Positions 4,068 through 21,280 of a stretch of 37,850 nucleotides of DNA are shown piece by piece. Origin of the DNA: Bacteroidota bacterium (GTDB taxonomy: Bacteria; Bacteroidota; Rhodothermia; Rhodothermales; Rubricoccaceae); assembly GCA_022561755.1 (NCBI GenBank), contig JADFQN010000010.1, positions 1-37,850 on the forward strand, written 5' to 3'. Position numbers and translations under genes: made by a program. A model generated the notes under the pieces. The model was not told where the DNA came from, made no database searches, and saw only the letters and a list, made by a program, of their open reading frames with translations. Position 1 is the stretch's first letter; each line of letters opens with the position of its first letter.

Positions 4068-4203
4068 GGGTTTTCTCGTCTCAAGTGGTTTCGCCAGGGA
4101 TGTGAGAGTGTTGATCCGGTACAACGCAGCCCAGGGAGGTCGTTGGGAAACGGCTCAATGGTTGGGCTGCGCAGTCCACGGAATGTGTCGGTGATGGGTG
4201 GTT

Positions 4204-5487
4204 TTAGAGTTCGTCGAACCAACTGCGCATGCGGCCGGTGATTTTGTTGACCAGGTTGTCCGCCGAACCGGCAAACCCGTCTCCTCCTGCACCAGCGTTC
4301 CCGAACTCGGAAGTCAGGAGCGATGCGCCTGCGCTGCCCGTCCGCAAGCCATGGAGCACAAGGCCGACACTGGTTGCAAATTGCGGGTCGGAGACCTCCT
4401 CGACGAGCCCGCCGGAAAGGCCGAGCGAGCGGCCTATACGGGCTTCGAGGCCGAGGATTTCGGAGGCAAGTTCAGCGGTACCCGGAATCAGCGAGCCGCC
4501 GCCCGTAAGCACGACGCCCGTCGAGAGGTGCCGGCCGTAGCCGCTCCGCTTGATTTCAATCCCCACGATTTCGAGGATCTCCTCCATGCGGGGCTGGATG
4601 ATTTGGGCAAGCGTACTCCGGCCGATGGTCTTCTCGGGGCGGCCCCCGATGCCCGGAATCGTGATTTCCTGGTCGTCTGTAACCTGGTTCACGAGAGCGG
4701 TGCCAAACTGCCGCTTGAGGCGTTCGGCCTGGTCCTGGAGGACACCCAGGCCCTTGCGGATGTCGTCCGTAACCCTGTTTCCGGCTACCGCGATGACGGC
4801 CGTGTGGCGGATCGTCTTGTCCTCAAAAACGGCGATGTCCGTCGTGCCGCCGCCGATGTCGATCAGCGCCACGCCCACTTCCTTCTCGTCCGGATGAAGC
4901 ACGGCGAGCGAAGATGCGAGCGGCTCGAGGACGATGTCCGACACCTCGTAACCGGCCTTTTCAATGCACCGGTATACGTTCTTTGCTGCCGATACAAGGC
5001 CCGTGATGATGTGCACATTCGCTTCGAGGCGGACGCCGCTCATCCCGATCGGGTCGGCGACGCCATCCTGTCCGTCCACGATGAACTCCTGCGGGAGCAC
5101 GTGGAGGATTTCACGATCGGCGGGCATGGCCACGTGGCGCGTGTCCTCCAGCAACCGGCGAACATCACCCTGTGTGATCTCGCCGTCGCGGCCGGAGACC
5201 GTGATCACGCCCCGGCTCTGGAAGCTCTGGATGTGATCGCCCGCGATGCCGACGACAACGGACTGTGTCTCCACACCGGCCGCATGCTCGGCCTCGCTAA
5301 TTGCTCGTTTCACTGCCTCAACCGTCTTGTCGATGTTGACGACGACGCCCCGGTTGAGGCCCTCGGATTCGGCCACGCCGACGCCCAGGATGTTAATGCG
5401 TTCGTGTTCGTCGGCAGAGGCCACCACGGCACATATTTTCGTGGTACCAATGTCGACGCCGACGACGATGTGTTCGCTTTCGTTCAT
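4204..5487 (-). CDS. ftsA: Cell division protein FtsA
   Basis: An actin-like ATPase that tethers FtsZ filaments to the inner face of the cytoplasmic membrane. It is 427 aa, in the normal range. It shows the phosphate-1 motif VGVDIGTTKICAVV at the N-terminus, phosphate-2 ALIDIGGGTTDIAVF near residue 210, and the adenosine motif VLTGGGSLIPG near residue 330. The 1C subdomain (SHS2) lies between phosphate-1 and phosphate-2. The C-terminal KITGRMRSWFDEL is the expected amphipathic membrane-targeting helix. It sits between ftsQ (26 bases upstream) and ftsZ, the usual order. Confidence 0.97.
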   Translation of the reverse strand: MNESEHIVVGVDIGTTKICAVVASADEHERINILGVGVAESEGLNRGVVVNIDKTVEAVKRAISEAEHAAGVETQSVVVGIAGDHIQSFQSRGVITVSGRDGEITQGDVRRLLEDTRHVAMPADREILHVLPQEFIVDGQDGVADPIGMSGVRLEANVHIITGLVSAAKNVYRCIEKAGYEVSDIVLEPLASSLAVLHPDEKEVGVALIDIGGGTTDIAVFEDKTIRHTAVIAVAGNRVTDDIRKGLGVLQDQAERLKRQFGTALVNQVTDDQEITIPGIGGRPEKTIGRSTLAQIIQPRMEEILEIVGIEIKRSGYGRHLSTGVVLTGGGSLIPGTAELASEILGLEARIGRSLGLSGGLVEEVSDPQFATSVGLVLHGLRTGSAGASLLTSEFGNAGAGGDGFAGSADNLVNKITGRMRSWFDEL

Positions 5488-5513
5488 GGCGGTATGGGTT
5501 GAGGGTGCTTGTC

Positions 5514-6299
5514 TTAGTTAGAAATGACGGTGCTGTCTTCGCGGGTTACGATCTGCCCGTCGAAGCGAAGGTCGATAATGCGAAAGGTGAGTTCGGGGCG
5601 AGTGAGGACGGCCTGATGCCAGAAGGCGTGGAGGCGGGTCAGCTTCTTGCCGTAGTTGCCGATGCCGAGGCGCACGGAGACCGATCCGTGCCCACCGCCA
5701 GGGCTGGTGCGCAGGACGGCATTGCCTCCGGCGTCAAACGTGATTTCGGAAATGAGGGCGTCCGTCTCCAGATCGGCTTCGGCGAGAGCCTGGAGCATCT
5801 CGAGCACGGATGCACGCTGGATGGGCTGCGTGGGGTGATAATCAGGAACGCGGCCACGAAGAAGCGGCACGTCGTAAACGGCGCCCCGAACCAGCGGCAT
5901 CGCATAGCCCTCGGCGTCGAGGTAGTGCCCAGGGCGGCCATCTGCCCGAACGACGAGGACAACCGGCTCGCGCTCCACTACCCGAATTGAAAGCGTGCCC
6001 GACGGGCGGCGGCGAATGACCGCATCGCGGACCCACGGCGTCCGGCGGACACGATCCACGAGCACGTCGGATTCGATGGCGAAGAGCCCTATCGAGTCGC
6101 TCTCGAGTGCGGCATAGCGCACCACTTCGGATGAATCCGCGTGGACGGCGCCCGAGACTACCACGCGCTTCATGGGCACACTCTGATGCCACGACCACGC
6201 CATAAACGCGATCATCGCGACCGTCAGAGTCATTCCACCCAGAACCATCCGGCGGAGGATGCGGCGGCGCCTGCGCTGCTTCTTCGTCTCGCGTGCCAT
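5514..6299 (-). CDS. ftsQ: Cell division protein FtsQ/DivIB
   Basis: A bitopic membrane protein of the divisome core that recruits FtsL and the late division proteins. It is 261 aa. A very basic cytoplasmic tail (ETKKQRRRRRILRR) is followed by one transmembrane segment (about residues 18-36). A POTRA domain begins at VPMKRVVVSG, and the FtsQ beta domain follows. Its ATG overlaps the murC stop (TGATG), so the two are translationally coupled. Sequence conservation is low in this family; position between murC and ftsA makes the call firm. Confidence 0.93.
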   Translation of the reverse strand: MARETKKQRRRRRILRRMVLGGMTLTVAMIAFMAWSWHQSVPMKRVVVSGAVHADSSEVVRYAALESDSIGLFAIESDVLVDRVRRTPWVRDAVIRRRPSGTLSIRVVEREPVVLVVRADGRPGHYLDAEGYAMPLVRGAVYDVPLLRGRVPDYHPTQPIQRASVLEMLQALAEADLETDALISEITFDAGGNAVLRTSPGGGHGSVSVRLGIGNYGKKLTRLHAFWHQAVLTRPELTFRIIDLRFDGQIVTREDSTVISN

Positions 6300-7732
6300 C
6301 AGGAGGCCACCTCCGCGTTGCGCTCAACGAGTTGTTCGTAAAAGGCCTTGCTTTGCCGCCAGATGTCGCCCGCGCCCATCGTTATCACGAGGTCGCCGGG
6401 CTCGACGAGGCCGAGCAGAAAGGCGGGGAGTTCGGTTTTGTCCTCCACGTAGTGCACCGCGCGGTGGCCGTTCTGCTTGGCGAGCTCGGCCAGCATGGCT
6501 CCATCCACCCCTTCAATGGGATCCTCCCGTGCTCCGTAGATGTCCGTGAGCACCAGCACATCGGCGTTGACGAACGCGCGGGCAAAGTCGTCGGCCAGGT
6601 AGGCCGTGCGGGAATAGAGATGCGGCTGGAAGACGGCCACGATCCGGCGCGAGGGCCATCCGGTTGTGGCGGCGTCCAGCGTCACGATGATCTCCGTTGG
6701 GTGATGTGCGTAGTCGTCAACCACAATCACACCACCTGCCTCGCCCCGAATCTGGAAGCGGCGGTCCACGCCGGAGTACATCGCCAGGCCTTGTACGATG
6801 GTCTCGAAAGGCACGTCGAGTTCCAACCCGACCGCAACCGCCGCCAACGCATTAAGGACATTGTGGAGGCCGGGTGCGTGCAGCATCGCGCCGCCGAGCC
6901 GGTCATTGCCCCGGAAGACGTCGAAATGCGTGGAGGCTCCAACCTGCTCGACGTTTTCCGCGCGGATTTCCGCCTGCCTGCTCGTACCGTAGGTCAGCAC
7001 CCGGCGGTGGATATCGCTCAGGATGTCGCGCACGTTCGGATCGTCCAAACAGAGGATCGCCGCACCGAAGAAGGGCACCGAGTTGGCGTACTGCGTGAAC
7101 GCCTGCTTAATGTCGTCGAGATCCTCGTAAATGTCGAGGTGCTCGGCCTCAATGTTCGTGATGAGCGCCAGGGCCGGCGTCAGCTTGAGGAACGTCCGGT
7201 CGTATTCATCGGCTTCGATTACGATAACGTCCCCCAAACCGGAAACGGCATTGGAGCCAAATACGGCCACTTTCCCGCCCACGATGATAGTGGGGTCGAA
7301 CCCGGCCTCCTGCGCCACCAGGCCAACCATCGTGGTGGTGGTGGTCTTGCCGTGTGTGCCCGCCACGCCGATGCCGAACTTCATCCGCATCAGTTCGCCG
7401 AGCATCTCCGAGCGCTTGATAATGGGAATGTGCAGCCGCTGCGCCTCTACGGTCTCCGGGTTCTCGTCGGCGCGCACCGCCGAGGAGTACACCACCACGT
7501 CGGCCTCCTGCACGTTCGCCGCCGCGTGGCCTTCGTACACCTCGGCGCCGAGGCTTTCGAGATGATCGGTGACCTCGCTCTTCCGAAGATCCGAGCCAGT
7601 AACGGTGTGCCCGCGCGCCAGCAGCACTTCAGCAATCGACGACATGCCGATTCCGCCGATGCCCACCATGTGGACGTTCCGGATGCGGCCCATCGGGGGC
7701 GCCGAGCGTAACAGGCGTGGAGACGCGCTCAT
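6299..7732 (-). CDS. murC: UDP-N-acetylmuramate--L-alanine ligase MurC
   Basis: Cytoplasmic Mur ligase adding L-alanine to UDP-N-acetylmuramate, the first residue of the peptidoglycan stem peptide. It is 477 aa. The N-terminal UDP-binding Rossmann domain has HMVGIGGIGMSSIAEVLL near residue 21. The ATP-binding P-loop is GTHGKTTTTTM near residue 119. The central domain has EADEYDRTFL, and the C-terminal domain has DDYAHHPTEI, a MurC hallmark. The start overlaps the murG stop by ATGA, indicating coupling. Confidence 0.97.
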   Translation of the reverse strand: MSASPRLLRSAPPMGRIRNVHMVGIGGIGMSSIAEVLLARGHTVTGSDLRKSEVTDHLESLGAEVYEGHAAANVQEADVVVYSSAVRADENPETVEAQRLHIPIIKRSEMLGELMRMKFGIGVAGTHGKTTTTTMVGLVAQEAGFDPTIIVGGKVAVFGSNAVSGLGDVIVIEADEYDRTFLKLTPALALITNIEAEHLDIYEDLDDIKQAFTQYANSVPFFGAAILCLDDPNVRDILSDIHRRVLTYGTSRQAEIRAENVEQVGASTHFDVFRGNDRLGGAMLHAPGLHNVLNALAAVAVGLELDVPFETIVQGLAMYSGVDRRFQIRGEAGGVIVVDDYAHHPTEIIVTLDAATTGWPSRRIVAVFQPHLYSRTAYLADDFARAFVNADVLVLTDIYGAREDPIEGVDGAMLAELAKQNGHRAVHYVEDKTELPAFLLGLVEPGDLVITMGAGDIWRQSKAFYEQLVERNAEVAS

Positions 7733-9183
7733 GCCGTGCCTCCGTGAGTTTCCGCCAACTCCACAACGCGATCTGCAATGGTGCGAGCCGCGTCGGGGCG
7801 AGCGATGTCGAGCGCGGCCTCGCGCATGACGGCGCGGCGGTCTGCATCCGTCAACAATTCCACTACTGTGGCCTCAAACTGGCTGTCGAGGTCCGTTTCG
7901 AGGAGCAACACGGCTGCGCCGGCCTCGGCCAGCGCGCGGGCATTCTTAGTTTGGTGATCGGCCGTAACGTTCGGACTCGGAACGAGCACAGACGGCGTAC
8001 CGGTCACGGTTAACTCGGAACAGGTGATGGCTCCGGCGCGACACAGGACCAGATCGGCCGCCGCGTAGGCCAGATCCATCCGGTCGAGGTACGGCAGCAA
8101 CCGCAGGCGCGGATGGCCGGGAATCCCCTTTTCGAGCGCCTCGAAATACCGCGAGCCCGTCTGCCAGATGAGGAACGCGTTCTCGTCGGCGAGCAGCGAA
8201 TCGATATGCAGTTTGAGCGCGCCGTTGATGGGCCCGGCGCCGAGCGAGCCGCCCATCACCAAAAGAACAGACGCGCCTGTGGGCACACCGAAATGGGCGT
8301 GGGCTTCGGCGCGGTCGGCTTCGGCCAGATCCTGCCGGACAGGATTCCCGGCCAGTACGCACTTCTTCTCCGGGAAGTAGGCCTTGGCAGCCTCGAATGC
8401 GACGAAAATGGTATCGGCGCGCTTCGCGAGCATTTTGTTCGTTGCGCCGGCGTACGCGTTCTGCTCCTGCAAAACCAGGCCGCGGCCCTTCACACTGCCC
8501 GCCATTCCGACGGGGCCGGAGGCGTACCCACCCGTGCCGACCACTACGTCGGGGTCGAACGAACTGACGAGGCGCAGGCTCTCCCACATGCCCTTTGCCA
8601 GCTTGAACGGGAACGTCAGGTTGCGGGTAAGCGCTTCACGCGAAAGGCCTCGCTGGAAGCCGCTTACTGTTACGGCGTGGATCGGGTACCCCGCCTTCGG
8701 CACAGCGGTCCACTCCATTCGGTCGCGCGTGCCTGCAAAAGCGATGGCCGCCGCCGGGTGCTCGGCCCGGATGGCATCCGCGATGGCGATAGCCGGGTAC
8801 ACGTGTCCGCCCGTCCCGCCGCACGCAAAGAGCACGCGGGGCGTTCCGGCAGGAGGCGTCTCCGGTTGGGAGCCAGTGTAGGCGCTATCGAGAACGGCGG
8901 TGGTCAGGGTTTGAGGGGTTGAGAGTGTGAGTGCGTGAGGGATTGAAATCGTAGGGACGTCCCTTGTGGGCGTCCTATGAGTATGAGTGAGTGAGCAGTT
9001 GAGGTAAGGCGTGATCGCCGAGCGCGCCGGGGAGGAGAGTGTGAGAGTATGAGGGATTGAAATCGTAGGGACGTCCCTTGTGGGCGTCCTATGAGTATGA
9101 GTGAGTGAGCAGTTGAGAGTTTGAGAGTCTGGGGGGGTGAGTGGATGAGAGGGCGATCGAGTATGTAAAGTGCTCTCGCACAC
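7729..9183 (-). CDS. murG: UDP-GlcNAc:undecaprenyl-PP-MurNAc-pentapeptide transferase MurG, with odd N-terminus
   Basis: The membrane-associated GT-B glycosyltransferase that converts lipid I to lipid II. Core motifs are FACGGTGGHVYPA (acceptor/diphosphate G-loop), VMGGSLGAGPIN, and CRAGAITCSEL near the UDP-GlcNAc site. The conserved part begins only at about residue 117 (near 8835) and matches the usual length of about 365 aa. The preceding 116 codons are open but non-conserved and contain two copies of an in-frame 114-base intergenic repeat. I find no ATG, GTG or TTG in this frame between the GTG at 9183, which abuts the ftsW stop, and the conserved core. Either the extension is translated or a rare start (for example CTG near 8907) is used. 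The coordinates follow the only canonical start. Confidence 0.9.
   Translation of the reverse strand: MCESTLHTRSPSHPLTPPDSQTLNCSLTHTHRTPTRDVPTISIPHTLTLSSPARSAITPYLNCSLTHTHRTPTRDVPTISIPHALTLSTPQTLTTAVLDSAYTGSQPETPPAGTPRVLFACGGTGGHVYPAIAIADAIRAEHPAAAIAFAGTRDRMEWTAVPKAGYPIHAVTVSGFQRGLSREALTRNLTFPFKLAKGMWESLRLVSSFDPDVVVGTGGYASGPVGMAGSVKGRGLVLQEQNAYAGATNKMLAKRADTIFVAFEAAKAYFPEKKCVLAGNPVRQDLAEADRAEAHAHFGVPTGASVLLVMGGSLGAGPINGALKLHIDSLLADENAFLIWQTGSRYFEALEKGIPGHPRLRLLPYLDRMDLAYAAADLVLCRAGAITCSELTVTGTPSVLVPSPNVTADHQTKNARALAEAGAAVLLLETDLDSQFEATVVELLTDADRRAVMREAALDIARPDAARTIADRVVELAETHGGTA
8941..9117. repeat. Two-copy 114-bp in-frame direct repeat with palindromic core
   Basis: The 63 bases at 8941-9003 recur identically at 9055-9117, a period of 114 (38 codons). 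Each copy contains the imperfect palindrome GGACGTCCC-TTGT-GGGCGTCC preceded by GTAG, followed by a GAGTATGAGTGAGTGAG tract. The core resembles the REP-like palindromes at 21281-22058. It lies in the predicted N-terminal extension of MurG. Confidence 0.85.
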
Positions 9184-10329
9184 TCATTCTGTCTGGCTGT
9201 GGCGCGAAATGTTGAGAAGGATGCCCACCATTGCGCCCGTAGCGATGAGCGAGGTGCCTCCGTACGAAACGAACGGCATGGCGAGGCCGGTAACGGGGAG
9301 CAGGCCGGAGGCCACGGCGGCGTTCACGAAGCCATATAAAACAATGGCGGTCGTGAGGCCAGTGGCGAGAAAGAGACCGAACGGATCGGGAGAGCCGCGC
9401 GCTATGCGGAGGTAGCCACGCAGCAGCAAGTACGCGAATATGAGGAGGATCATCGTGGCGCCGATGAGGCCGTATTCCTCTGCGATGATGGCAAAAATGA
9501 AGTCGTTGTAGGGCGCCGGGAGGAAGTCGCGCTGGATGCTCTTGCCCGGCCCAACGCCGGTGAGGCCGCCCATCGCAAACGCAATTCGCGCCTGGTCGGC
9601 CTGATAGCCCTCCGCTTGCGAGTCGAAGACCTCGTCCGGGTTCGTGTTGCCGAACACGGAGATGCCGAGGAAACTCTCGAAACGCGCCGCGCGCTCCGGG
9701 GATGACAACAGCAGCAGCGAACCCAGAGCAACAAAGAGCACTGCCACACTTACGAGGTGCGTGATCCGCACTCGCCCTACGAACATTACGATAGAGACCG
9801 ACAGCAATAGAATCGCGGCCGTCGAGAAGTCCTCGATACCAATCAGCAGAAGCGTGGGCCCAATCCAGAAGCAGAGGGGCACGAACGCCCGGTAGAAGTC
9901 GCCGATGTAGTCCTGCTTCTTTGCCAAAAGCACTGACACGTGAATCAGCAGAGCCACTTTTGCGAATTCGGATGGCTGGAAGCTCACCGACCCGATCTCA
10001 ATCCAGCGCACGGCGCCGTTTGTTATCGCGCCGATGATCAGTACCGCCACCAGGAGCACCATCGAGATGAGCATGAACACTTTCGAGAGCTTCGTGAGCC
10101 ACCGATAGTCGATCATCGACAGGACGCCGGCCACGCCCAGCGCCATGCCAACATGAGCCACGTGACGGAACAGAAAACGCTCCTGGTCGCCGCCGGATTT
10201 TGTTTCCGCGAGGAACGCCACCGCGCTGTACACCGCCACCACGCCCGCTGCGGCAAGCAGCAATACGGCCGCCATGACGGCCTTGTCCATCGGCGGAAGT
10301 GCAAGCGTTCGGGTGCGGGCAGTGCTCAT
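9184..10329 (-). CDS. ftsW: SEDS septal peptidoglycan polymerase FtsW
   Basis: The SEDS glycosyltransferase that polymerises lipid II at the septum together with FtsI. It is 381 aa from the ATG; the ORF track begins one codon earlier at a TTG. About ten hydrophobic segments are visible. Family motifs are NGAVRWIEIGSVSFQPSEFAK (split here only for description), FIFAIIAEEYGLIGA, and the signature LLPVTGLAMPFVSYGGTSL near the C-terminus. It follows murD by 12 bases, and its TGA adjoins the predicted murG GTG. RodA is the paralogue to exclude; the dcw location favours FtsW. Confidence 0.95.
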   Translation of the reverse strand: MSTARTRTLALPPMDKAVMAAVLLLAAAGVVAVYSAVAFLAETKSGGDQERFLFRHVAHVGMALGVAGVLSMIDYRWLTKLSKVFMLISMVLLVAVLIIGAITNGAVRWIEIGSVSFQPSEFAKVALLIHVSVLLAKKQDYIGDFYRAFVPLCFWIGPTLLLIGIEDFSTAAILLLSVSIVMFVGRVRITHLVSVAVLFVALGSLLLLSSPERAARFESFLGISVFGNTNPDEVFDSQAEGYQADQARIAFAMGGLTGVGPGKSIQRDFLPAPYNDFIFAIIAEEYGLIGATMILLIFAYLLLRGYLRIARGSPDPFGLFLATGLTTAIVLYGFVNAAVASGLLPVTGLAMPFVSYGGTSLIATGAMVGILLNISRHSQTE

Positions 10330-10341
10330 CAATGGGGTCGG

Positions 10342-11733
10342 TCAAAGGCTCCGGACGAGGTGCCTGAAGTGTTCGCCGCGCTGCTCGAAGTTCTCGTACA
10401 GGTCGAAGGACGCACAGGCGGGGCTGAGGAGGACGATGTCGCCGGGTTCGGCCATCAGGCGGGCGTACTGAATGGCTTCCTCCATCGTCTGGGCGCGGGC
10501 GGTTTGCTCGGCGAACGAGCCGAGCTCGGCGATCACCCTGCCGCCGCTCTCACCAAGGCCGACAATCCCCTTCACCTTCTCACTCACCAGCCGCTCAAGC
10601 GGCCCGTAGTCGTTGCCTTTGTCGCGGCCGCCGGCGATGAGCACGATGGGCTTGGAAAACGACTCCAGTGCATACCAGACGGCATTCACATTGGTCGCCT
10701 TCGAGTCGTTGATGTAGGTGACCTCATGCACCGTCCGGACGGTTTCCAAACGGTTCGGCACGCCTTCGAAAGAGGTCAGGCTCTCGCGGACAACGTCGCT
10801 GCGGATCTCCATTGCACGTGCCGCGATGGCGGCAGCGAGGGAGTTGTAGATATTGTGGCGCCCATCTAAGGCCAGATCGTCCGAGGGCATAAGCTCCTCT
10901 TCGTAAATCACTGTAGACTGTGGGTTAAGGGTCTCGGGGAGGGCGAGGACAACACGGCCATCACGAACGAATGCGCCGCGCTCCAATTGGCGTTCGTTAG
11001 AAATTGGCCACGCGGTAATTCCGCGCTCAGCGCACCACGGCTCCACAAAGTCGCGGACGACTTCATCGTCGTGGTTGTACACCAGCCAGTCGGTTGGCTG
11101 CTGATTTTCAAAAACACGGAATTTGCTCCGGGCATAGAGGTCGAAGTTGTTTTCGTAGCGGTCGAGGTGGTCGGGCGAGATGTTGAGCAGCACCGACACT
11201 TTTGGTCTGAACGTGGCAATGTGGTCGAGCTGGAAGCTGGAGACCTCCAGAACCACCACCGTGTCGTCTCCGATTTCATTGATGTAGCCTGAAAAGGCAG
11301 ACCCGATATTCCCGGCGACGACAAAGTCACGGTTGGCTGTGTGAAAGAGGTGGGCGATGAGCGAGGTGGTGGTAGTCTTGCCGTTCGAGCCCGTCACGGC
11401 GATGATCGGCCCCTTGCAGAGCCAACTCGCCACTTCGATCTCCGAGTAAACGGCGATGTCGCTGCTTAGCGCATCCTGAACGAGATCGGCGCTGGTCGGA
11501 ACACCCGGCGAGAGCACGAGGAAGTCGGCGTCGAGCGCACGACTGGTGTGGCCGCCGAACTCGTAGCGGATGCCCTCCGCGCCGAGGCCTTCCGCGACGG
11601 CCACATCCGGCGAACCCCGTTCGGTGAGGAATACCGACGCGCCCCGGCTCGCCAGCAGCTTCGCAGCCGCAAGGCCGCTCCGCGCCGCGCCGACGACGGT
11701 GATGCGGGAGCCTTTGATTTCGACGGGGTTCAT
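10342..11733 (-). CDS. murD: UDP-N-acetylmuramoyl-L-alanine--D-glutamate ligase MurD
   Basis: Cytoplasmic Mur ligase adding D-glutamate to UDP-MurNAc-L-Ala. It is 463 aa. The N-terminal Rossmann motif is ITVVGAARSGLAAAKLL. The ATP P-loop is VTGSNGKTTTTSLI near residue 115. The central domain has NISPDHLDRY, typical of MurD, and the C-terminal domain has YINDSKATNVNAV with the carboxylate-binding residues, then VLIAGGRDKGND. All catalytic motifs look intact. It lies between mraY (109-base repeat-containing gap) and ftsW. Confidence 0.97.
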   Translation of the reverse strand: MNPVEIKGSRITVVGAARSGLAAAKLLASRGASVFLTERGSPDVAVAEGLGAEGIRYEFGGHTSRALDADFLVLSPGVPTSADLVQDALSSDIAVYSEIEVASWLCKGPIIAVTGSNGKTTTTSLIAHLFHTANRDFVVAGNIGSAFSGYINEIGDDTVVVLEVSSFQLDHIATFRPKVSVLLNISPDHLDRYENNFDLYARSKFRVFENQQPTDWLVYNHDDEVVRDFVEPWCAERGITAWPISNERQLERGAFVRDGRVVLALPETLNPQSTVIYEEELMPSDDLALDGRHNIYNSLAAAIAARAMEIRSDVVRESLTSFEGVPNRLETVRTVHEVTYINDSKATNVNAVWYALESFSKPIVLIAGGRDKGNDYGPLERLVSEKVKGIVGLGESGGRVIAELGSFAEQTARAQTMEEAIQYARLMAEPGDIVLLSPACASFDLYENFEQRGEHFRHLVRSL

Positions 11734-11738
11734 TGGAA

Positions 11739-11840
11739 AAGCTCCGTTCTTCGGACGCTCGCTGCGCTCGCTTTCGTACTTCGTTCTTCACTTTAGTTGA
11801 AACGAGAAGACCGAAGAACAAAGACCGAAGAACAAAGCAC
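11739..11840. repeat. Intergenic short-repeat spacer between mraY and murD
   Basis: GACCGAAGAACAAA occurs twice in tandem (11809-11836). Inverted relatives (TTCGTTCTTC, GTTCTTCGGAC) occur toward murD, around CGCTCGCTGCGCTCG. The spacer can fold back on itself and has no coding potential I trust. Analogous spacers occur at 13016-13064, 19908-19989 and 33824-33900. Confidence 0.6.
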
Positions 11841-11842
11841 GA

Positions 11843-12997
11843 TTAACGTATCCGCAGGAGAAAGAGGGTCAGAGTCACGAGTAGGGCAGTCACGATCCAG
11901 AAGCGCACGACGATCTTGTTCTCGTGGACGCCGAGGGCCTCGTAGTGGTGGTGAAGCGGGGCCATCAGGAAGACGCGCCGCCCTTCACCGTACTTCTTTC
12001 GCGAGTACTTGAAGTAACCCGTCTGGATAATCACCGATACCGTCTCGATCACGAAGATGGCGCACAGAACGGGCAGATAAAGCTCCTTCTTGACCAGAAT
12101 CGCCAACGTCGCGATGGCCGCTCCAAGCGCAAGGCTCCCGGTGTCGCCCATGAAAACCTGCGCGGGGAAGCCGTTGTACCAGAGGAACCCGAAGCATGCC
12201 GCCGCCAGCGCCGCCGCGAACACGGTCAGCTCGCCCGTGCCGGGGAGGTAGAGGTCATTCACGAACTCCGCCAGGATGGTATTGCCGGTGATGTAGATCA
12301 TTACGATCAGCCCGAGCGAAACGAACGCCGCCGTGCCCGCCGTGAGGCCATCGAGGCCGTCCGTGAGGTTCACCGCGTTGGAAACGCCCGTCAGGACGAA
12401 GGTGATGATGGGGATGTAGACCAGCCAGCCAAGCTCGATGCCGAAAAGAGGCGTCAGAAAATCGTAATCGACGATGCCGTTCGTGAGGAACGGCATGCTC
12501 GTCACTGTGTGGATGCCTTCGAGCGCGTTCCAGTTCATGAGGAAGACGCTCAGCGCGATTCCTAGACTAATCTGCCCCGCCAGCTTCACCTTCCCTGCCA
12601 GCCCTTTCTTGTTCTTCCGCACCACCTTTATATAGTCGTCGGCGAAGCCGACTGCGCCCATCCACAGCGTAGAGATCAGCGCGAGCCAGACGTAGACGTT
12701 GGTCAGATCGGCCCAGAGAAGGGTGGCCCCAGCGATGGCCAGCAGGATGATCACCCCGCCCATAGTGGGGGTTCCAGCCTTGTGGGCATGGCTCACGACG
12801 CCGGCGTCTTCACCTTCCCGGATGGTTTCACCGATCTGCTGATGGGCCAACCAGCGGATGATCTTCTTGCCGGCAAAAAGCCCGATCAGCAGCGCCGTTC
12901 CGGCCGCCAGCGACGCGCGAACCGTGGTGAACTCAAAGACCTGAAAACCAGGAGGCTGAAAGGTCTGTTCGAGCCAGCTGAGGAGGTGGTAGAGCAT
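11843..12997 (-). CDS. mraY: Phospho-N-acetylmuramoyl-pentapeptide transferase MraY
   Basis: The integral membrane enzyme that transfers phospho-MurNAc-pentapeptide to undecaprenyl phosphate, forming lipid I. It is 384 aa with about ten transmembrane segments. Diagnostic motifs are GTPTMGGVIILLAI, GFADDYIKVVRKNKKGL (with the catalytic Asp-Asp), NLTDGLDGLTAGTAAF, and LMAPLHHHYEALG. All conserved Asp and His residues are present. In the transcript it follows murE directly. murF, which adds D-Ala-D-Ala, is not in the cluster and must lie elsewhere, as is common in Bacteroidota. Confidence 0.97.
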   Translation of the reverse strand: MLYHLLSWLEQTFQPPGFQVFEFTTVRASLAAGTALLIGLFAGKKIIRWLAHQQIGETIREGEDAGVVSHAHKAGTPTMGGVIILLAIAGATLLWADLTNVYVWLALISTLWMGAVGFADDYIKVVRKNKKGLAGKVKLAGQISLGIALSVFLMNWNALEGIHTVTSMPFLTNGIVDYDFLTPLFGIELGWLVYIPIITFVLTGVSNAVNLTDGLDGLTAGTAAFVSLGLIVMIYITGNTILAEFVNDLYLPGTGELTVFAAALAAACFGFLWYNGFPAQVFMGDTGSLALGAAIATLAILVKKELYLPVLCAIFVIETVSVIIQTGYFKYSRKKYGEGRRVFLMAPLHHHYEALGVHENKIVVRFWIVTALLVTLTLFLLRIR

Positions 12998-13015
12998 GGA
13001 GCTTGTGATTGACCA

Positions 13016-13064
13016 CCAACGGCCGACAACTGACTGCGGTCAACGGTCAGCGGTCAGCGGTCTT
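13016..13064. repeat. GGTCAGC-type tandem repeat at the murE 3' end
   Basis: GGTCAACGGTCAGCGGTCAGCGGTC consists of about 3.5 units of a 7-base GGTCARC repeat. It straddles the murE stop codon and supplies its last codons (PLTADR). Upstream GACCACCAACGGCCGACAAC is a degenerate relative. Confidence 0.7.
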
Positions 13065-14626
13065 TGAAGAAGAGCATTCTCCAGGTGCATACGATCATCA
13101 AAAGGTCGTTTTTCGGTACCGATGATCTGGTAGTCTTCGTGGCCTTTTCCGGCCACGACAACGACATCTCCGGGGGCGGACCCCGCGACGGCGGTGGCGA
13201 TGGCCTCAGCCCGATCGGGGAGCGTGGTTGCGGCGGATGGGTCTTGTAGTCCGGTCTGAATCTCGGCGATAATCGTGAGCGGGTCTTCCGTTCGGGGGTT
13301 GTCGTTGGTGAGAATGACCCGGTCGGCGTGGGTCTCGGCGACGCGGGCCATTTTGGGACGTTTCGTGCGATCTCTATCTCCACCGCAGCCGAAAACAGCG
13401 ATGAGTTTTCTGTTAGGCTCCATCATCTCGCGAGCCGTTCGGAGGACGTTGTCGAGCGCATCGGGCGTGTGGGCGTAATCCACAATGCCGAGAACGCCGT
13501 CTTCCGAGGCAAACGTCTCGAAACGACCGGGGACGCCGGGAGCCCTGGTTAGAACACCGAGCACTTCATCCCGCGAATACCCGAGTTCGCGGCCCACCGC
13601 ATACGCTGCGGCAACGTTCAACGCGTTGAAGCGCCCCGCGAGCCGGAACTTCTTTTCGACGCCATCGAGTCGGAGTAGCAAACCGCTAAGTGCGTTCTCC
13701 AGAACCTCCACGGGGACATCAGCATCCGCGTCAGTGCCGAACGTGATCACACGGGCCGCGGAGTCGGCCACCATGCTCTCCCACGCGGGGTCGTCGCAGT
13801 TTACGATGGCCGCGGCGTCGGCCTGGAGGCCATCAAACAGCCTCTTTTTGGCGGATGCGTAGGCCTCGGGCGATCCGTGGAAATCGAGGTGGTCGTGCGT
13901 CAGGTTGGTGAAAACACCGACACGGAAGCGTTGCCCTCGTACGCGATCGAGCGCGAGCCCGTGCGAGGAGACCTCCATGGCGCAGGTACTGCATCCGGCG
14001 TCCACCATCGCACGAAGCACGCGGTTCAATTCAATGGGCTCGGGCGTCGTGTAGCCCGTAGCGATAATCTGTTCGCCGATCCGGTTCTCAATCGTCCCGA
14101 CGAGCCCTGTCTTCTCGCCCAGCGCCATCATCAGATGGTGGAGCAGGAAGACGGTGGTTGTCTTGCCGTTGGTGCCGGTGACCCCGAGGATATCGAGCGA
14201 CGCGCCGGGATGCCCGTAGAACGCATTCGCGACCTCCGCCAGCGCGGCTCTCGTATCTGAAACAGGTACGAAAACCGCGCTGGGGAGGCGCTCACCCTTC
14301 CCCAAGGGACTCGTTGCAGGCGATGCCTCGCCTGCGGACGCCGTTGCTTCGCGGAGCCAATCGGCATCCACGATGGCGGCAACGGCGCCTTGTTGCACAG
14401 CCGTGTCAAGGAACAGGTGCCCGTCGCTGTGGTCGCCCTTGCGGGCGATGAACAGCGTGTCGGGCCCGACATCGCGGCTGTCTTCCGCGAGTCGGTGAAT
14501 CAGAACCTGATCGGCCTCCGGTACATCAACCACCAGCAAGCCTGCTGCACGCAGCGGTACGAGCAGGCCGGCCAGCGGCTGCGGGGGGACGACAGGGTCA
14601 GTAAGCAAAGAACGGGTAGCGCCCAC
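13040..14626 (-). CDS. murE: UDP-N-acetylmuramoyl-tripeptide synthetase MurE (meso-DAP type)
   Basis: Cytoplasmic Mur ligase adding the third stem residue. The motif DNPRTEDP is the known signature for meso-diaminopimelate rather than lysine. Other motifs are the N-terminal EDSRDVGPDTLFIARKG, the P-loop GVTGTNGKTTTVFLL, NLTHDHLDFHGS, and VDYAHTPDALDNVL. The ORF-track start (14746) would overlap ftsI by 115 bases and add arginine-rich non-conserved residues. I prefer the GTG at 14626, six bases after the ftsI stop, giving 528 aa. A TTG at 14608 is an alternative. An insertion-like stretch near residues 105-135 (GEASPATSPLGKGERLPSA) is not typical of the family and may be repeat-derived. The last residues come from the 7-base tandem repeat. 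Confidence 0.94.
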   Translation of the reverse strand: MGATRSLLTDPVVPPQPLAGLLVPLRAAGLLVVDVPEADQVLIHRLAEDSRDVGPDTLFIARKGDHSDGHLFLDTAVQQGAVAAIVDADWLREATASAGEASPATSPLGKGERLPSAVFVPVSDTRAALAEVANAFYGHPGASLDILGVTGTNGKTTTVFLLHHLMMALGEKTGLVGTIENRIGEQIIATGYTTPEPIELNRVLRAMVDAGCSTCAMEVSSHGLALDRVRGQRFRVGVFTNLTHDHLDFHGSPEAYASAKKRLFDGLQADAAAIVNCDDPAWESMVADSAARVITFGTDADADVPVEVLENALSGLLLRLDGVEKKFRLAGRFNALNVAAAYAVGRELGYSRDEVLGVLTRAPGVPGRFETFASEDGVLGIVDYAHTPDALDNVLRTAREMMEPNRKLIAVFGCGGDRDRTKRPKMARVAETHADRVILTNDNPRTEDPLTIIAEIQTGLQDPSAATTLPDRAEAIATAVAGSAPGDVVVVAGKGHEDYQIIGTEKRPFDDRMHLENALLQRPLTADR

Positions 14627-14631
14627 GGCCG

Positions 14632-16728
14632 TCAGCGCAAAGTCAGAACCGCCTGTGAGGGTAATGAGGCGCCGGAATTGGGGGATTGCGCGGTCACGAC
14701 ACCGGAGCCCTGAAGGCGGGCCTCCACGCCGAGCGACGCGAGCCATATCACGGCACGGCGGGTAGATAATCCGCTCAGGTCCGGCATGGTAATGGGTTCA
14801 GTAGGCGAATCGGAGGCGGCCGTAACCACGGTGTTACGGCTCGGCTCGCGCCGTTCGGAAGGTGTAGTCGTCAGACGTACGGCACTTCTGATGCGCGTCG
14901 TATCACCGCCATTAGGACGTTGGGCCGATACAATCTGCCACGCGGCATCCCGCGCAAGGCGCACGGGGAAGCCGTTCGCGCGGAGGCGCCCGGCTGCCAG
15001 CACGCCCGGCATCCCGCCGACATCCGGAACGCGGGCTTCGGTGCGTTCGGGAAGGACATCCGCCGGAGCCACCTGTTCTGCGATGCTTGGGAACGTGCCG
15101 ATCCACCGGCGGGCGATCTCTCCGAAAATCGGCGCAGCGACGGTCCCACCATACGAACCGTTCCGGGGGTTATTCAACACCACGATCATTGCCACTTCGG
15201 GATTGTCCGCTGGGAAGAAGCCCACAAACGAGGCGCGGTAGCGGCGCTGGTAGCCGCCGCCCGAAGCAATCTGTGCGGTACCGGTCTTGCCTGCGATCCG
15301 AAGGCCTTCCACCGCTGCCCTGCGGCCCGTTCCCTCGCGGGAAACGACGCGCTCGAACCACGGCAACAAACGCTCGGCGGTTTCGGGATCAAAGGCGCGG
15401 CGGATGGAGTCCTGGCGAGCCGTCCACGTTACGCGGCCATGCACATTGCGGCGCTCGGCAACGACGTACGGCCGCACGAGCAAGCCACCGTTGGCGAGCG
15501 CGCTGTAGGCCGTAACAATTTGTAACGCCGTGGCTTCCACCTCATAACCGGTAGCCATCCAGGGGAGTGTGATGCCGCTCCACGTCTCGGGCCGTTTGAG
15601 GCTGCCCGCCACTTCGCCGGGCAGATCCACGAGCGTCGGCTGGCCGAAACCGAATGCGCGCGCATACTGGTAGAAGGTGCCGCGCTCCATCCGGTAGGCC
15701 GTGCGTGCCATAGCCACGTTCGACGATTTCACGATGGCCATCCCGAAAGGAATCCGCCCGTAGCCGTGGCTGTCGTGCATGGTGCGGCCATGGAAGACGG
15801 CCCAGCCCTGCCCGGTATCTACGGAATCCTCCAGAGCAATCAGCCCGCTTTCAACCGCCGCCACCGCGGTGACGAGCTTGAACGTCGAGCCCGGTTCGAA
15901 ACGGTCGGTAATCGCGTGGTTGCGGCGCGCAGCGGCCGAAAATGCGCCCGGGCGGTTGGGGTCGTAATCCGGGACGTTTGCCATCGCCAGAATGGCGCCG
16001 GTACGGGGGTCCATCGCAACGGCGGTGCCCCAGGTAGCCTCGGCTTCGGCAACACCGCGCGCTAGTTCTTCCTCCAGAATGGCCTGACGGACGAGATCGA
16101 TGGTCAGCACCAGATGCTCGCCGTGGCGGGGTTCCTCAACCGGCCCACCGACCAGAGCTTTTACGATGCCCCGGCGGTCGCGTTGCACCGCCTGGCGGCC
16201 GGGTTCGCCTTGCAAATACTCGTCGTAGAGCATCTCAAGGCCTGCCTGTCCCCGCAAATCCGTATCCACGTGGCCGAGGATGTGGCCGGCCGTGCGCGCG
16301 TAATTGTAGCGGCGCGCAAACGAGCCGGTCAGGAGCAGCCCAGGGATGTCCGCCGCGTCGATCTCTTCTTTCGAGGTCTCGTCGAGCGATCGAACGAGCA
16401 GCACGTACTGGCGGCTCGCGCGGCCGGCTACGCGGTTGCGGTAGTAGCTCGCAGGGCGATCCGTGAAACGGCCGAGCAACGCGTAGAACTCCTCGGCTCG
16501 CTCCTCAAAGCCGGCAATGGTCGGATCGAGCGCCACCTCATACCGTGCGGTATTGACCACAAGCGCACGCCCCGCCTGATCGTAGATGGATCCCCGCGTA
16601 GCCGGCAGATCCACAAACGACGATGCCTGCCGCTCACCCCGCTCGCGGAGTTCGCTTCCGTCGCTCAGGTGGATCCGCACCATCTGGGCGAACACACCGA
16701 CCGGGAGAATCAGCAGGAACGCGATCAC
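14632..16728 (-). CDS. ftsI: Septal peptidoglycan transpeptidase FtsI/PBP3 with PASTA domains
   Basis: The class B penicillin-binding protein that cross-links septal peptidoglycan with FtsW. It is 698 aa. A single N-terminal membrane segment is followed by the dimerisation/pedestal domain (LPATRGSIYDQAGR). The transpeptidase domain has the active-site STFK near residue 281, SSN near 335 and KTGTAQI near 481. The C-terminus carries two PASTA repeats (VPDVGGMPG..., MPDLSGLSTR...), as in SpoVD-like enzymes. The start is a GTG inside the expected transmembrane segment. Upstream, the frame is open to a TAA but contains no ATG, GTG or TTG; conserved-looking residues (ILSRLYV) lie in that stretch, so a non-canonical start such as ATT or CTG is possible. 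Confidence 0.95.
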   Translation of the reverse strand: MIAFLLILPVGVFAQMVRIHLSDGSELRERGERQASSFVDLPATRGSIYDQAGRALVVNTARYEVALDPTIAGFEERAEEFYALLGRFTDRPASYYRNRVAGRASRQYVLLVRSLDETSKEEIDAADIPGLLLTGSFARRYNYARTAGHILGHVDTDLRGQAGLEMLYDEYLQGEPGRQAVQRDRRGIVKALVGGPVEEPRHGEHLVLTIDLVRQAILEEELARGVAEAEATWGTAVAMDPRTGAILAMANVPDYDPNRPGAFSAAARRNHAITDRFEPGSTFKLVTAVAAVESGLIALEDSVDTGQGWAVFHGRTMHDSHGYGRIPFGMAIVKSSNVAMARTAYRMERGTFYQYARAFGFGQPTLVDLPGEVAGSLKRPETWSGITLPWMATGYEVEATALQIVTAYSALANGGLLVRPYVVAERRNVHGRVTWTARQDSIRRAFDPETAERLLPWFERVVSREGTGRRAAVEGLRIAGKTGTAQIASGGGYQRRYRASFVGFFPADNPEVAMIVVLNNPRNGSYGGTVAAPIFGEIARRWIGTFPSIAEQVAPADVLPERTEARVPDVGGMPGVLAAGRLRANGFPVRLARDAAWQIVSAQRPNGGDTTRIRSAVRLTTTPSERREPSRNTVVTAASDSPTEPITMPDLSGLSTRRAVIWLASLGVEARLQGSGVVTAQSPNSGASLPSQAVLTLR

Positions 16729-16809
16729 GACGTAAAGGCGGCTCAGTATGGTATCGCGAGCGGTAATGGGCTCAGTGTGAAAAAGGTGGAGTGTTTAAAA
16801 GTTGGAGTT

Positions 16810-17364
16810 TTAGTCGTTCACGTTGATGACAGGGCCGTAGGCTGCGCCTTCCTCGAGGCCGAGGGCGGCGGCTCTGTCCATGACTTGCTGCGGACCGGTC
16901 ATCCGATTAAAAGCGCCGCGGAGCCGGTCCCGTGTAAGGCGGAGGCGGAGGTTTTCGCGCCGCTCGCTCTGTAGATTGGCCAACGTCGATTGCGTGGCGT
17001 ACACGTGGCCCACGTACAGCGTCACTGCGATGCAGGCGATCAGCGTCCAGACTGCAAACCGCAGCGACGGCGCAACGTCCAGCACGCGCAATCTCGACTT
17101 CCTTCGCGTTGAGGGGCCACTTCGCTTCCGCCTGTTGGTCTTCCGCGCCGTTCCGTTGTCGGATATCCCCAGGTCGTTCCATCCGGGCAAACCCGTGCTG
17201 GGCGCAACAAGGCGGGAATGCGTGGAGCGACGGCTTTGGCTGGTCTCGGCCGTGCGGCTCGGCTTACGGACCGGGCGACGGCCGGAGTTCCGCAATGCGC
17301 GCCTCGCAGACGTAGATGTGCGCCTCGCAGACTTGGATGTACGCGTCGCAGACTTGGCGGGCAT
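16810..17364 (-). CDS. ftsL: Cell division protein FtsL-like, with long basic N-terminal tail
   Basis: A bitopic divisome protein bridging FtsQ and FtsW-FtsI. It is 184 aa, longer than the usual 100-130. About 100 residues of Arg/Ser/Thr-rich cytoplasmic sequence come first, including near-repeats (TSKSARRTSTSARRA). One transmembrane segment follows (FAVWTLIACIAVTLYVGHVYA, about 103-123), then a short coiled-coil-like periplasmic segment (LANLQSERRENLRLRLTRDRLRGAF). FtsL is poorly conserved in sequence. The assignment rests on topology and the position between rsmH and ftsI. The tail may be overextended, but no obviously better start was seen. Confidence 0.8.
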   Translation of the reverse strand: MPAKSATRTSKSARRTSTSARRALRNSGRRPVRKPSRTAETSQSRRSTHSRLVAPSTGLPGWNDLGISDNGTARKTNRRKRSGPSTRRKSRLRVLDVAPSLRFAVWTLIACIAVTLYVGHVYATQSTLANLQSERRENLRLRLTRDRLRGAFNRMTGPQQVMDRAAALGLEEGAAYGPVINVND

Positions 17365-17460
17365 GAGTAGCGGTAGGGCGAGAAGTGAAAAGCGGGGCGA
17401 GCGCGGGAAGCGAGGGGGGGTGGGCGGGGGACGCGGGCATACGGGCCCGGGCCGGCCCCC

Positions 17461-18522
17461 TCACGATTCCCGCTGTCGCGGATGACTGGTTTGCGGATCG
17501 GGTTTCTTTTCGGAGATGCGTAGCCGCGCGCTGCGCGCGCGGGGGTTGGCCTGGATTTCCTCGGGCGTGGCCACGATGGGCTTCCGGGTGAGGAGATTCC
17601 ACGGTGTGAGCAGGTTGCCGTAAAAGTCCTTTTTGGCCTCGCCTTCCAGATTGCCGAAGCGGAGGTAGTGCTTGGCGCGGCGGTCTTCGAGCGAGTGGTA
17701 GCTAATAACCGCAAGGTGCCCGCCGGGACGAAGAACGTTGAGAGCCGCCTCCAAAGTGCGTTCAAGCGCACTCATCTCGTCGTTGACGGCGATGCGGAAG
17801 GCCTGGAAAACGCGGGCGAGCGTCTTGACCTCTTCCTTCGCGGGAACGGCGCTGCGCACGACCTCTGCTAATTCACCGGTCGTGGCAAAGGCGCCGTGCT
17901 CTACAATAGCGTTGGCAATGGGCCACGCCCGCGGCTCGTCGCCATAGGCCCGGAGGAGGTCGGTGATGGCCTGTACATCGAGGCGGTCGATCAGTTCGGC
18001 GGCGGTTTCACCAGTGCTGGCATCCATCCGCATGTCCAACGGGCCGTCGGCCGAGAATGCAAAGCCGCGCGCGGCCTCGTCGATCTGATGCGAGGAAATG
18101 CCGAGATCGAGCAAGACGCCATGCACAGCCTCTACGTCGGCGTCAGCCAGCAGGTCTTCCATATCGGCGAAGTTGCCATGGATCGTCCGGAAGCGTCCGG
18201 CTTCGACCGCATATGACAAACGCTCTTCAGATGCGGCAAGAGCTTCTGCATCCTTATCGATCCCGATCACACGCCCCGTGGGAGTGAGTGCGTTCAACAA
18301 AGCGTCGCTATGGCCTCCGCCACCCAGCGTACCATCTATATAGATCCCTGCACGATCCGTCACGAGCCCGTCCACCACAGCAGCGGCCATCACGGGCGCG
18401 TGGTAGGCAGAAGCAAAGCGGAGCGGATCCGCCGACAGGCTTACGGGCCGGCCGGTGGATCGGGCTCCACGGCCCGAAGGCCGATGGGATTGGGGAGCCA
18501 TGTGGATTGCTGCCGTCTGCAT
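17461..18522 (-). CDS. rsmH: 16S rRNA m4C1402 methyltransferase RsmH (MraW)
   Basis: SAM-dependent N4-methylation of C1402 in 16S rRNA. It is 353 aa. Motifs are YHAPVMAAAVVDGL, the SAM-binding YIDGTLGGGGHSDALL near residue 63, LLDLGISSHQIDEAARGFAF, and the C-terminal LRPGGHLAVISYHSLEDRRAKHYLR. An extra N-terminal stretch of about 35 residues (Arg/Ser/Gly-rich) precedes the conserved core and is probably unstructured. The gene begins six bases after mraZ, the standard second position of dcw clusters. Confidence 0.96.
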   Translation of the reverse strand: MQTAAIHMAPQSHRPSGRGARSTGRPVSLSADPLRFASAYHAPVMAAAVVDGLVTDRAGIYIDGTLGGGGHSDALLNALTPTGRVIGIDKDAEALAASEERLSYAVEAGRFRTIHGNFADMEDLLADADVEAVHGVLLDLGISSHQIDEAARGFAFSADGPLDMRMDASTGETAAELIDRLDVQAITDLLRAYGDEPRAWPIANAIVEHGAFATTGELAEVVRSAVPAKEEVKTLARVFQAFRIAVNDEMSALERTLEAALNVLRPGGHLAVISYHSLEDRRAKHYLRFGNLEGEAKKDFYGNLLTPWNLLTRKPIVATPEEIQANPRARSARLRISEKKPDPQTSHPRQRES

Positions 18523-18528
18523 GGTGGA

Positions 18529-18987
18529 TTACTCGGATTCGAACTTGCTCATAACGCGCTCAACCAGACTCTCATATGAGTCGGCCTGGGCGTCGTCTTC
18601 GGCTTTCAGGATGGCGGGGTCCCAGATCTCAATCGTGTCGATCGTTCCGATGATGACAACCTTCTCGCCATCGAGACCGGCATGGTCGATGTGTGTGCGC
18701 GGAAGGCTGATTCGTCCTTGGGCATCGAGGATTACCCGCTCAGCCCTGCGCGATTCGGTGCGCTTGACTATCCGGTTATCCTTGAGAAACGGGCTTAGCT
18801 TCGTGAGCAAGTCCGCCTTCTCTTTCCAAACATTCTTGGGAATCAGCGTGACGCATTGCTCGATGCCCTGCCAGGCAATGAACGTCTCGTCCGCATCGGG
18901 GCTCAACTCGCGTCGCATCCTTGCCGGCAAGGCCACGCGGCCCTTGTCGTCAATGGAGTGCTCAGATTGTCCTAAGAACCCGACCAT
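18529..18987 (-). CDS. mraZ: Transcriptional regulator MraZ
   Basis: The first gene of the dcw operon; in other bacteria MraZ represses its own promoter by binding tandem G-rich repeats. It is 152 aa from the chosen ATG (MVGFLGQSEHSIDDKGRVALPARMRREL). The ORF-track start adds 22 residues translated from the G-rich leader. A GGGGGAG Shine-Dalgarno-like run lies just before the chosen ATG. Two SpoVT/AbrB-like domains are present, the second at ERVILDAQGRISLPRTHID. Length is normal (about 145-155). Confidence 0.95.
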   Translation of the reverse strand: MVGFLGQSEHSIDDKGRVALPARMRRELSPDADETFIAWQGIEQCVTLIPKNVWKEKADLLTKLSPFLKDNRIVKRTESRRAERVILDAQGRISLPRTHIDHAGLDGEKVVIIGTIDTIEIWDPAILKAEDDAQADSYESLVERVMSKFESE

Positions 18988-18995: not shown

Positions 18996-19051
18996 CCCCC
19001 ACAATTCGCCAGAGTTTGGGATTCTTCCCCACAATTCCCCCCCACGGCCCC
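18996..19051 (-). promoter_or_regulatory. Putative MraZ operator (G-rich repeats in the mraZ leader)
   Basis: On the minus strand the leader contains TTTGGGGCC, GTGGGGGGG and twice GAATTGTGGGG (19027-19037 and within 18996-19007). In E. coli MraZ binds three TGGGN repeats about ten bases apart near its own promoter. Spacing here is roughly 10-11 bases for the upstream three and about 31 for the last. The family behaviour is known; binding here is inferred. Confidence 0.4.
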
Positions 19052-19080
19052 AAAGTATCTCTGAATGCCCAATAATCAAG
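19051..19080 (-). promoter_or_regulatory. Candidate Bacteroidota-type promoter of the dcw operon
   Basis: On the minus strand CTTG is followed 19 bases later by TACTTTG, close to the Bacteroidota -33 TTTG / -7 TAnnTTTG consensus, though one base shorter in the -7 box. It lies about 64 bases upstream of the mraZ ATG and directly before the G-rich repeats. Confidence 0.35.
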
Positions 19081-19151
19081 TTATCGCGAGCGAAAAAGTT
19101 GGATTTGTGGACAAATAGGCCCCAAGAGGGCACCAGAGAGGGTAGTGAGAC

Positions 19152-19185
19152 ATCGCTATGGTGAATATGAATTCACCATAGCGAT
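19152..19185. promoter_or_regulatory. 34-bp near-perfect palindrome, candidate LexA operator 1
   Basis: ATCGCTATGGTGAAT is perfectly inverted as ATTCACCATAGCGAT around a 4-base centre. The core reads GGTGAA-N6-TTCACC and ends 66 bases before the lexA ATG. Symmetry this long next to an HTH repressor gene implies a dimer-binding site. Binding by this LexA is inferred. Confidence 0.7.
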
Positions 19186-19201: not shown

Positions 19202-19219
19202 GGTGAACGTATTTTCACC
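19202..19219. promoter_or_regulatory. Second GGTGAA-N6-TTCACC site, candidate LexA operator 2
   Basis: GGTGAACGTATTTTCACC has the same core as operator 1. Its centre (19210.5) is exactly 42 bases from that of operator 1 (19168.5), four helical turns, so both face the same side of the DNA. TATTTTC inside it could be a -7 box for lexA, which would make the site repressive. Confidence 0.65.
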
Positions 19220-19251
19220 CCTGTTGTCGACGCGCTTTGCGATTGAGGGAC

Positions 19252-19899
19252 ATGGTGATCAAACCCAGTCTGACGGAGAGGCAAAACCAGGTGTATGAGT
19301 TTCTCCGCTCATACATCCGCGATCATCAGAAGCCGCCGACGATGGCTGAGATCGGCAACGCCCTCTCGATCCGGTCCACCAACGCGGTGTTCAAGTTCGT
19401 CGTGGCGCTGGAGAAGAAGGGCTACCTCACGCGGACGCCACGTGTGTCCCGGGGGATTGCTCTTACCCAGGCGGGCGACCAGCTATCCTTCACCCGGCCA
19501 CCCCCTCTTTTGCCGATCATCAGGGCGGCGCGTAGCGATCAACCCGAACAGCTTCGCCACCACCCAACCGGGGCGCTGCACGTCGATGCCCGCCTACTTG
19601 GCCCCACCGACGCCGACGTGTGCCTCGTTACCGTCGCGGGCGATGACGGCATGAGCGAGCAGGGGATTCGCATGGGCGACTTCCTCATCGTAGAAGAAAC
19701 CAACCAAGAGCAGCTCTTCAGCGGCGAGTTGGTCGCCGCGGTCATCGGCGAGCGAATCATGGCGCGCTCGTTCGATTTCTCACGCAACCGGCTCCACCTC
19801 CAGCCCTCAGCCCGAGGGTATGCTGCCGAATCGTTTCCGCCTGATTCGCCCGGCTGCCACATCATTGGGCGAGTGCTGGGGGTGATGCGGAAGCTGTAG
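19252..19899 (+). CDS. lexA: LexA-family repressor with apparently inactive autoprotease domain
   Basis: It is 215 aa from the ATG at 19252; the track start is an upstream TTG. The N-terminal winged helix (TERQNQVYEFLRSYI ... TMAEIGNALSI ... ALEKKGYLTR, residues 7-62) is clearly LexA-like, and the C-terminal S24 fold is recognisable (MGDFLIVEE, LHLQPSARGY, IIGRVLGVMRKL). The three elements needed for self-cleavage look absent. The hinge reads IIRAARSDQ where Ala-Gly is expected (about 92-95). The serine motif GDSM reads GDDGM (130-134). The lysine segment (LKRF in typical LexA) reads MARSF (170-174). It is divergent from mraZ with two palindromic sites upstream. It is probably a constitutive or otherwise controlled repressor; another cleavable LexA may exist elsewhere. 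Confidence 0.88.
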   Translation: MVIKPSLTERQNQVYEFLRSYIRDHQKPPTMAEIGNALSIRSTNAVFKFVVALEKKGYLTRTPRVSRGIALTQAGDQLSFTRPPPLLPIIRAARSDQPEQLRHHPTGALHVDARLLGPTDADVCLVTVAGDDGMSEQGIRMGDFLIVEETNQEQLFSGELVAAVIGERIMARSFDFSRNRLHLQPSARGYAAESFPPDSPGCHIIGRVLGVMRKL

Positions 19900-19907
19900 A
19901 CGGATTG

Positions 19908-19989
19908 GTGCGTATTGCGTAGTGCGTATCAAGGTCGCGGGTTGAGACGCTTTTACGCCATCGAATTACGCAATACGAACTACGCACTA
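19908..19989. terminator. Inverted repeat between convergent lexA and DUF819 gene, possible bidirectional terminator
   Basis: GTGCGTATTGCGTAGTGCGTA (19908-19928) is inverted imperfectly at 19966-19989 (TTACGCAATACGAACTACGCACTA). It can form a long stem with a roughly 40-base loop. Both arms are built from GCGTA-type short repeats. It lies exactly in the gap between two convergent stops. Confidence 0.5.
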
Positions 19990-20004
19990 GCCCAATACCT
20001 ACCC

Positions 20005-21195: not shown

Positions 21196-21280
21196 GGGGA
21201 GGGATTTGGCTTGGCGAAGATAATGGGTGATGATGCACGGCGGACGGCAGACGAGGGACGGCGTATCAATGACGGAACCG

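Follow-up and report, generated by a model that had tools for sequence, protein, structure and literature searches.

The gene for which the name lexB (protein LexB) was coined in the present, purely computational analysis is located in a window of 37,850 nucleotides, the whole stretch of DNA that was analysed, and is oriented divergently to mraZ, with which the dcw (division and cell wall) cluster begins (Table 1). The open reading frame is a genuine gene. The remaining part of the cluster comprises mraW, an ftsI-type PBP gene, Mur ligase genes, mraY, ftsW, murG, ftsQ, ftsA and ftsZ. Since the downstream neighbour of lexB is convergent in the window, lexB appears to be transcribed alone. Inspection of the sequence by eye revealed an inverted repeat between lexB and this convergent gene. 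The string (G)AIHESP, or one close to it, recurs in several spurious open reading frames and points to a short palindromic element that is repeated.

Table 1. Features of the mraZ-lexB region and of LexB, with positions in the window
Feature	Position	Strand	Remarks
Remaining dcw cluster	2763..18522	-	Pfam
mraZ, divergent neighbour of lexB	18529..18987	-	PF02381, 3.3e-19
TGGGG repeats near the mraZ start	18997..19052	-	MraZ-box-like
Predicted mraZ promoter	19052..19079	-	TTGATT-N16-TACTTT; similar element in 28/47 related loci
DnaA-box-like element	19106..19114	-	TTGTCCACA; between mraZ promoter and operators
Inverted repeat around distal operator	19152-19185		34 bp; 14-nt arms, 6-nt spacer
Distal predicted operator	19160..19177		GGTGAATATGAATTCACC; within the 34-bp inverted repeat
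Proximal predicted operator	19202..19219		GGTGAACGTATTTTCACC; 42 bp downstream of distal, 32 bp before lexB ATG
lexB ribosome site	19245-19249	+	GAGGG
lexB, predicted non-cleaving LexA paralogue	19252..19899	+	ATG start, 215 aa; PF01726, PF00717
LexB winged-helix DNA-binding domain	19267..19455	+	PF01726, residues 6-68
LexB former cleavage site	19534..19539	+	Ala84-Gly85 = S95-D96; alignment to 1jhf, family table
LexB Cys124	19621-19623
LexB D-D-G-M replacing G-x-S-M	19642..19653	+	residues 131-134; Ser119 -> G133
LexB R172 replacing catalytic Lys156	19765..19767	+	Arg in 51/51 of clade
Inverted repeat between lexB and next gene	19905-19995		by eye
Spurious open reading frames	~21190-21410 and 21960		(G)AIHESP or similar

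LexB contains the LexA winged-helix DNA-binding domain (Pfam LexA_DNA_bind, PF01726, E-value 6.2e-19) and a C-terminal fold of the S24 type (Peptidase_S24, PF00717, E-value 1.3e-9). With 107.7 bits, the protein scored slightly below the cut-off of the NCBIfam lexA equivalog TIGR00498 (110.95). An AlphaFold (AF2) model was obtained with a pLDDT of 88 and a pTM of 0.61, for which the top Foldseek matches were full-length LexA proteins; the C-terminal domain matched LexA with a TM-score of approximately 0.8. The low pTM and a poor full-length superposition render the interdomain placement in the model unreliable. The domain assignments and the structural match are in line with the initial annotation, according to which the DNA-binding domain and the fold around the dead site are well kept.

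LexA is the textbook self-cleaving repressor. LexB was profile-aligned to LexA of E. coli (1jhf), with no gaps across either catalytic segment. Gly117, Ser119 and Lys156 are replaced by D131, G133 and R172, respectively, Met120 corresponds to M134, and the scissile Ala84-Gly85 is replaced by S95-D96. Hence, both the Ser119-Lys156 dyad and the scissile bond are absent from the aligned protein. The initial annotation had described a hinge (AARSD) without Ala-Gly and the loss of the catalytic lysine in a segment reading ARSF, and both are borne out. Its third observation, a replacement of GDSM by GDDGM, was correct with respect to the lost serine and does not reflect an insertion: the segment corresponding to VxGxSM reads AGDDGM, with Gly exchanged for Asp and Ser for Gly. 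An alignment with characterised LexA had been proposed there as a check, and neither Ser119 nor Lys156 is retained in LexB; the simultaneous loss of all three autoproteolysis features is found consistently in the alignment to E. coli LexA and in a family alignment of 110 proteins.

This family alignment comprised 51 members of the LexB clade, 50 ordinary LexAs and nine proteins counted apart, which are class A LexAs (families f1 and f10) with a catalytic domain degenerate in another manner. All 51 clade members possess Asp at the position of Gly117 and Arg at that of Lys156, and none has the Ala-Gly pair. The Ser119 position is occupied by Gly (44), Ala (4), Thr (1) or Ser (2), the serine thus being lost in 49/51 and retained in two distant members only. 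In the same alignment, the Ala-Gly pair, G117, S119 and K156 are all kept in 50/50 ordinary LexAs. Because of this contrast between the entire clade and all ordinary LexAs, the residue pattern of LexB is not attributable to chance, sequencing error or decay. Since Lys156 is replaced by Arg throughout and Ala-Gly is gone from the whole clade, catalyst and substrate site are both lost. That LexB is unable to cleave itself is well supported by these alignments.

The 51 sequences of the clade are all distinct and originate from Rhodothermales as well as from further families of Bacteroidota; LexB was found in relatives of the same order, and a phylum-wide search added families outside of it. Named matches include Roseithermus, Rhodothermus, Salinibacter and Salinivenus. 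In a careful tree of 84 rows, to which the clade contributed 37, the branch setting off the LexB clade received a support of 100/98. A quick tree of all 110 proteins agreed on the clade, but flagged long branches, and in both trees the clade is deeply separated from the cleavable LexAs. Judged by alignment and trees, LexB is an ancient paralogue of LexA that forms a widespread orthologous family, and not a case of local decay.

The gene is located divergently from mraZ in 47 of the 51 clade members, while the other four (families f31 and f52) do not adjoin mraZ. No co-loss of mraZ with lexB was found: mraZ is present without lexB in seven Rhodothermales relatives. The intergenic region usually harbors two predicted operators (GTGAA-N6-TTCAC), which are 31-33, 41-43 or 54 bp apart. 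At no more than one mismatch per site, the pair was detected in 24 of 35 Rhodothermales loci, where shuffled sequences would be expected to contain 0.096 sites per 300 bp. Genome searches covered strict or near-strict copies of the motif. Both copies of the exact motif in the own genome, and 11 of 13 in six genomes, are located between mraZ and lexB. For another operator consensus (one mismatch, 30 genomes), 16 of 19 rows were placed there, some rows representing one site on both strands. Strict copies of the motif are therefore almost confined to the gene's own locus. No operator pair was detected in the mraZ regions of the seven Rhodothermales relatives without lexB, five of which keep the mraZ-type promoter. 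This co-occurrence of operators and gene ties the operators to LexB, which would be the protein binding them. In Salinibacteraceae, the operators at lexB loci are degenerate or missing, while a variant pair (TGAAC-N5-GTTCA) is found in the distant family f40 and, similarly, variant inverted repeats lie between mraZ and lexB in family f36. Direct repeats of the class A (Balneola-type) LexA were searched for in the mraZ-lexB intergenic regions without a consistent match.

A promoter-like element of mraZ (TTGA[CT]N-N16-TAC[ACT]TT) followed by TGGGG repeats, which resemble MraZ boxes in the window, was detected in 25 loci; three further loci with another spacer or -10 element are included in the count given in Table 1. 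In the window, the operators are located approximately 80 bp upstream of the predicted -35 element of mraZ, so that a simple occlusion of mraZ is unlikely. A -10-like hexamer directly 3' of the proximal operator is found in 18 of 24 loci, while no clear lexB -10 element was detected at this position in the window. The arrangement with the hexamer argues for autorepression; mraZ would have to be affected from a distance. A DnaA-box-like element matching the strict pattern is present in 16 of 47 loci, and the window carries a variant, TTGTCCACA. In several lineages (intergenic regions of L058, L060, L068, L101, L104, L106 and L126), a CACATA element is present on either side of the operator region, the distance between the two being about 111-131 bp.

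We consider it likely that LexB is an ancient paralogue uncoupled from RecA and SOS, which represses its own promoter and provides mraZ and the dcw cluster with a local input independent of SOS. The C-terminal S24-fold domain would presumably serve for dimerisation only. One LexB dimer would bind each of the two GTGAA-N6-TTCAC operators, which are separated by approximately 3, 4 or 5 helical turns, and the two dimers would probably occupy the same face of the helix in a cooperative manner; this helical-spacing argument, which we infer here, is weaker outside Rhodothermales. Since the proximal operator lies in the lexB promoter region, LexB would repress its own gene, and autorepression is supported by the anatomy of the locus. 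A signal other than RecA would relieve the repression. As recognisable sites are found almost only between mraZ and lexB, it is most likely a local, SOS-independent input into mraZ/dcw transcription that constitutes the conserved role of LexB. Given the distance between the operators and the predicted mraZ promoter, this effect is a matter of inference. LexB gives the impression of a damage sensor that has become a local regulator, one which would not be switched off by the usual damage signal. A more far-reaching reading, in which LexB controls mraZ/dcw via two phased operators in response to a non-RecA signal and two LexA-derived regulators split damage response and division between them, is put forward tentatively, its chances being slightly below even.

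Less probable than the local input into mraZ/dcw, but the strongest of the alternatives, is that LexB controls only its own gene and dispersed degenerate sites, the linkage to mraZ being inherited synteny with no meaning for dcw. The approximately 80 bp between operators and mraZ promoter, the seven relatives having mraZ without lexB and the four unlinked clade members would all fit such a protein. However, the linkage has persisted in many families, in combination with at least two variants of the operators, and, given that strict motif copies are almost lacking elsewhere, a purely self-regulating protein would be left without an output.

Besides RecA, the own genome encodes a cleavable LexA (G000:C43, L065) with the motifs PAG, GDSM and TLKR, in agreement with the suggestion of the initial annotation to search for a second, cleavable LexA. 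Its gene adjoins imuB-like and DnaE-type (dnaE2) polymerase genes, with which it probably forms an SOS mutagenesis cassette. Given RecA and this gene arrangement, the SOS function is probably held by the LexA encoded on G000:C43. A separation of LexB from RecA-triggered SOS is well supported at the sequence level. It is unlikely that LexB modulates SOS by forming heterodimers or competing with the cleavable LexA: the two are of the same fold and coexist with RecA in one genome, but they differ in residues of the recognition-helix region, the LexB motif is almost absent elsewhere and LexB stands far from the cleavable LexAs in the trees. The initial proposal of a LexA repurposed away from SOS is retained as far as loss of cleavage and, by sequence, separation from SOS are concerned. 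It has to be revised in that LexB is not the genome's SOS LexA gone dead, but an ancient paralogue fixed beside mraZ across many families and equipped with its own operators.

The own genome is 88% complete, so that a class A LexA may yet be encoded in it. In class A LexAs encoded elsewhere (L029, L041, L043 and L045-L048 of f1, L039 and L049 of f10), the DNA-binding domain is intact, and the S24 domain is degenerate and devoid of the dyad. No cleavable PF01726-type LexA was found in the genomes G004, G007, G017 and G029, in which RecA is present and other S24 proteins remain.

Cys124 of LexB is conserved in 32 of 33 Rhodothermales members of the clade, compared to 8 of 50 ordinary LexAs, and could have a redox-related or structural role. 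The conserved cysteine and the serine at position 119 in two distant clade members might be taken to indicate that LexB is still cleaved by another route, for instance by itself with the help of Cys124 or a neighbouring Ser, or by a different LexA acting in trans; this is very improbable in view of the invariant Arg at Lys156 and the clade-wide loss of Ala-Gly. A decaying pseudogene or lineage accident can practically be dismissed, since, even though catalytic-domain decay without conservation occurs in class A LexAs (f1 and f10), lexB has an open frame, matching operators and a new invariant signature, D-x-[G/A]-M...R, over 51 distinct sequences, a conservation which already contradicts decay.

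In the LexB family, catalysis has been replaced by a new fixed signature and the gene has been kept at one locus by the division cluster. The family provides direct access to the question of how a duplicated LexA departs from SOS, and to a possible regulation of dcw in Rhodothermota, including the cultured genera Rhodothermus and Salinibacter. A literature search, with most subscription journals outside its coverage, yielded no description of an mraZ-adjacent non-cleaving LexA; non-cleavable LexA as such is already known from cyanobacteria (PMC7567884).

With canonical E. coli LexA (1jhf/1jhh), LexB shares the two domains (PF01726 and S24), catalytic segments alignable without gaps, inverted-repeat operators and, likely, negative autoregulation. 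In contrast to this protein, LexB lacks Ala-Gly, Ser119 and Lys156, has its own operator motif with almost no recognisable strict sites elsewhere and is fixed beside mraZ. The LexA of Synechocystis PCC 6803 is naturally non-cleavable, lacks Ala-Gly and the catalytic Ser and acts outside SOS; it is reported to regulate many genes, and phosphorylation was proposed as its control (PMC7567884). The comparison with cyanobacterial LexA made in the initial annotation is appropriate for the lost residues, but the resemblance is an analogy and not an established kinship: LexB is a paralogue that coexists with a cleavable LexA and is apparently confined to one locus. Non-canonical LexA proteins of Bacteroidetes, which control SOS, combine a phage-CI-like N-terminus with an intact cleavage signature (PMC8565304). 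LexB belongs to the same S24 family and phylum, but shows the reverse combination of a LexA N-terminus and a dead catalytic domain. The LexA of Balneola, from a sister lineage of the LexB hosts, governs an SOS regulon via the direct-repeat motif TTACACATATTTTWTACATA (PMC7739468), whereas the LexB motif is an inverted repeat at one locus and not a direct repeat at SOS targets. MraZ is described, in the part of PMC8475190 citing Eraso et al. 2014, as a regulator at the head of dcw which binds just upstream. Like MraZ, LexB would be a regulator whose gene lies at the start of the dcw cluster and whose binding sites are located just upstream of it, although the folds of both proteins are unrelated and the TGGGG repeats of MraZ are separate from the LexB operators.
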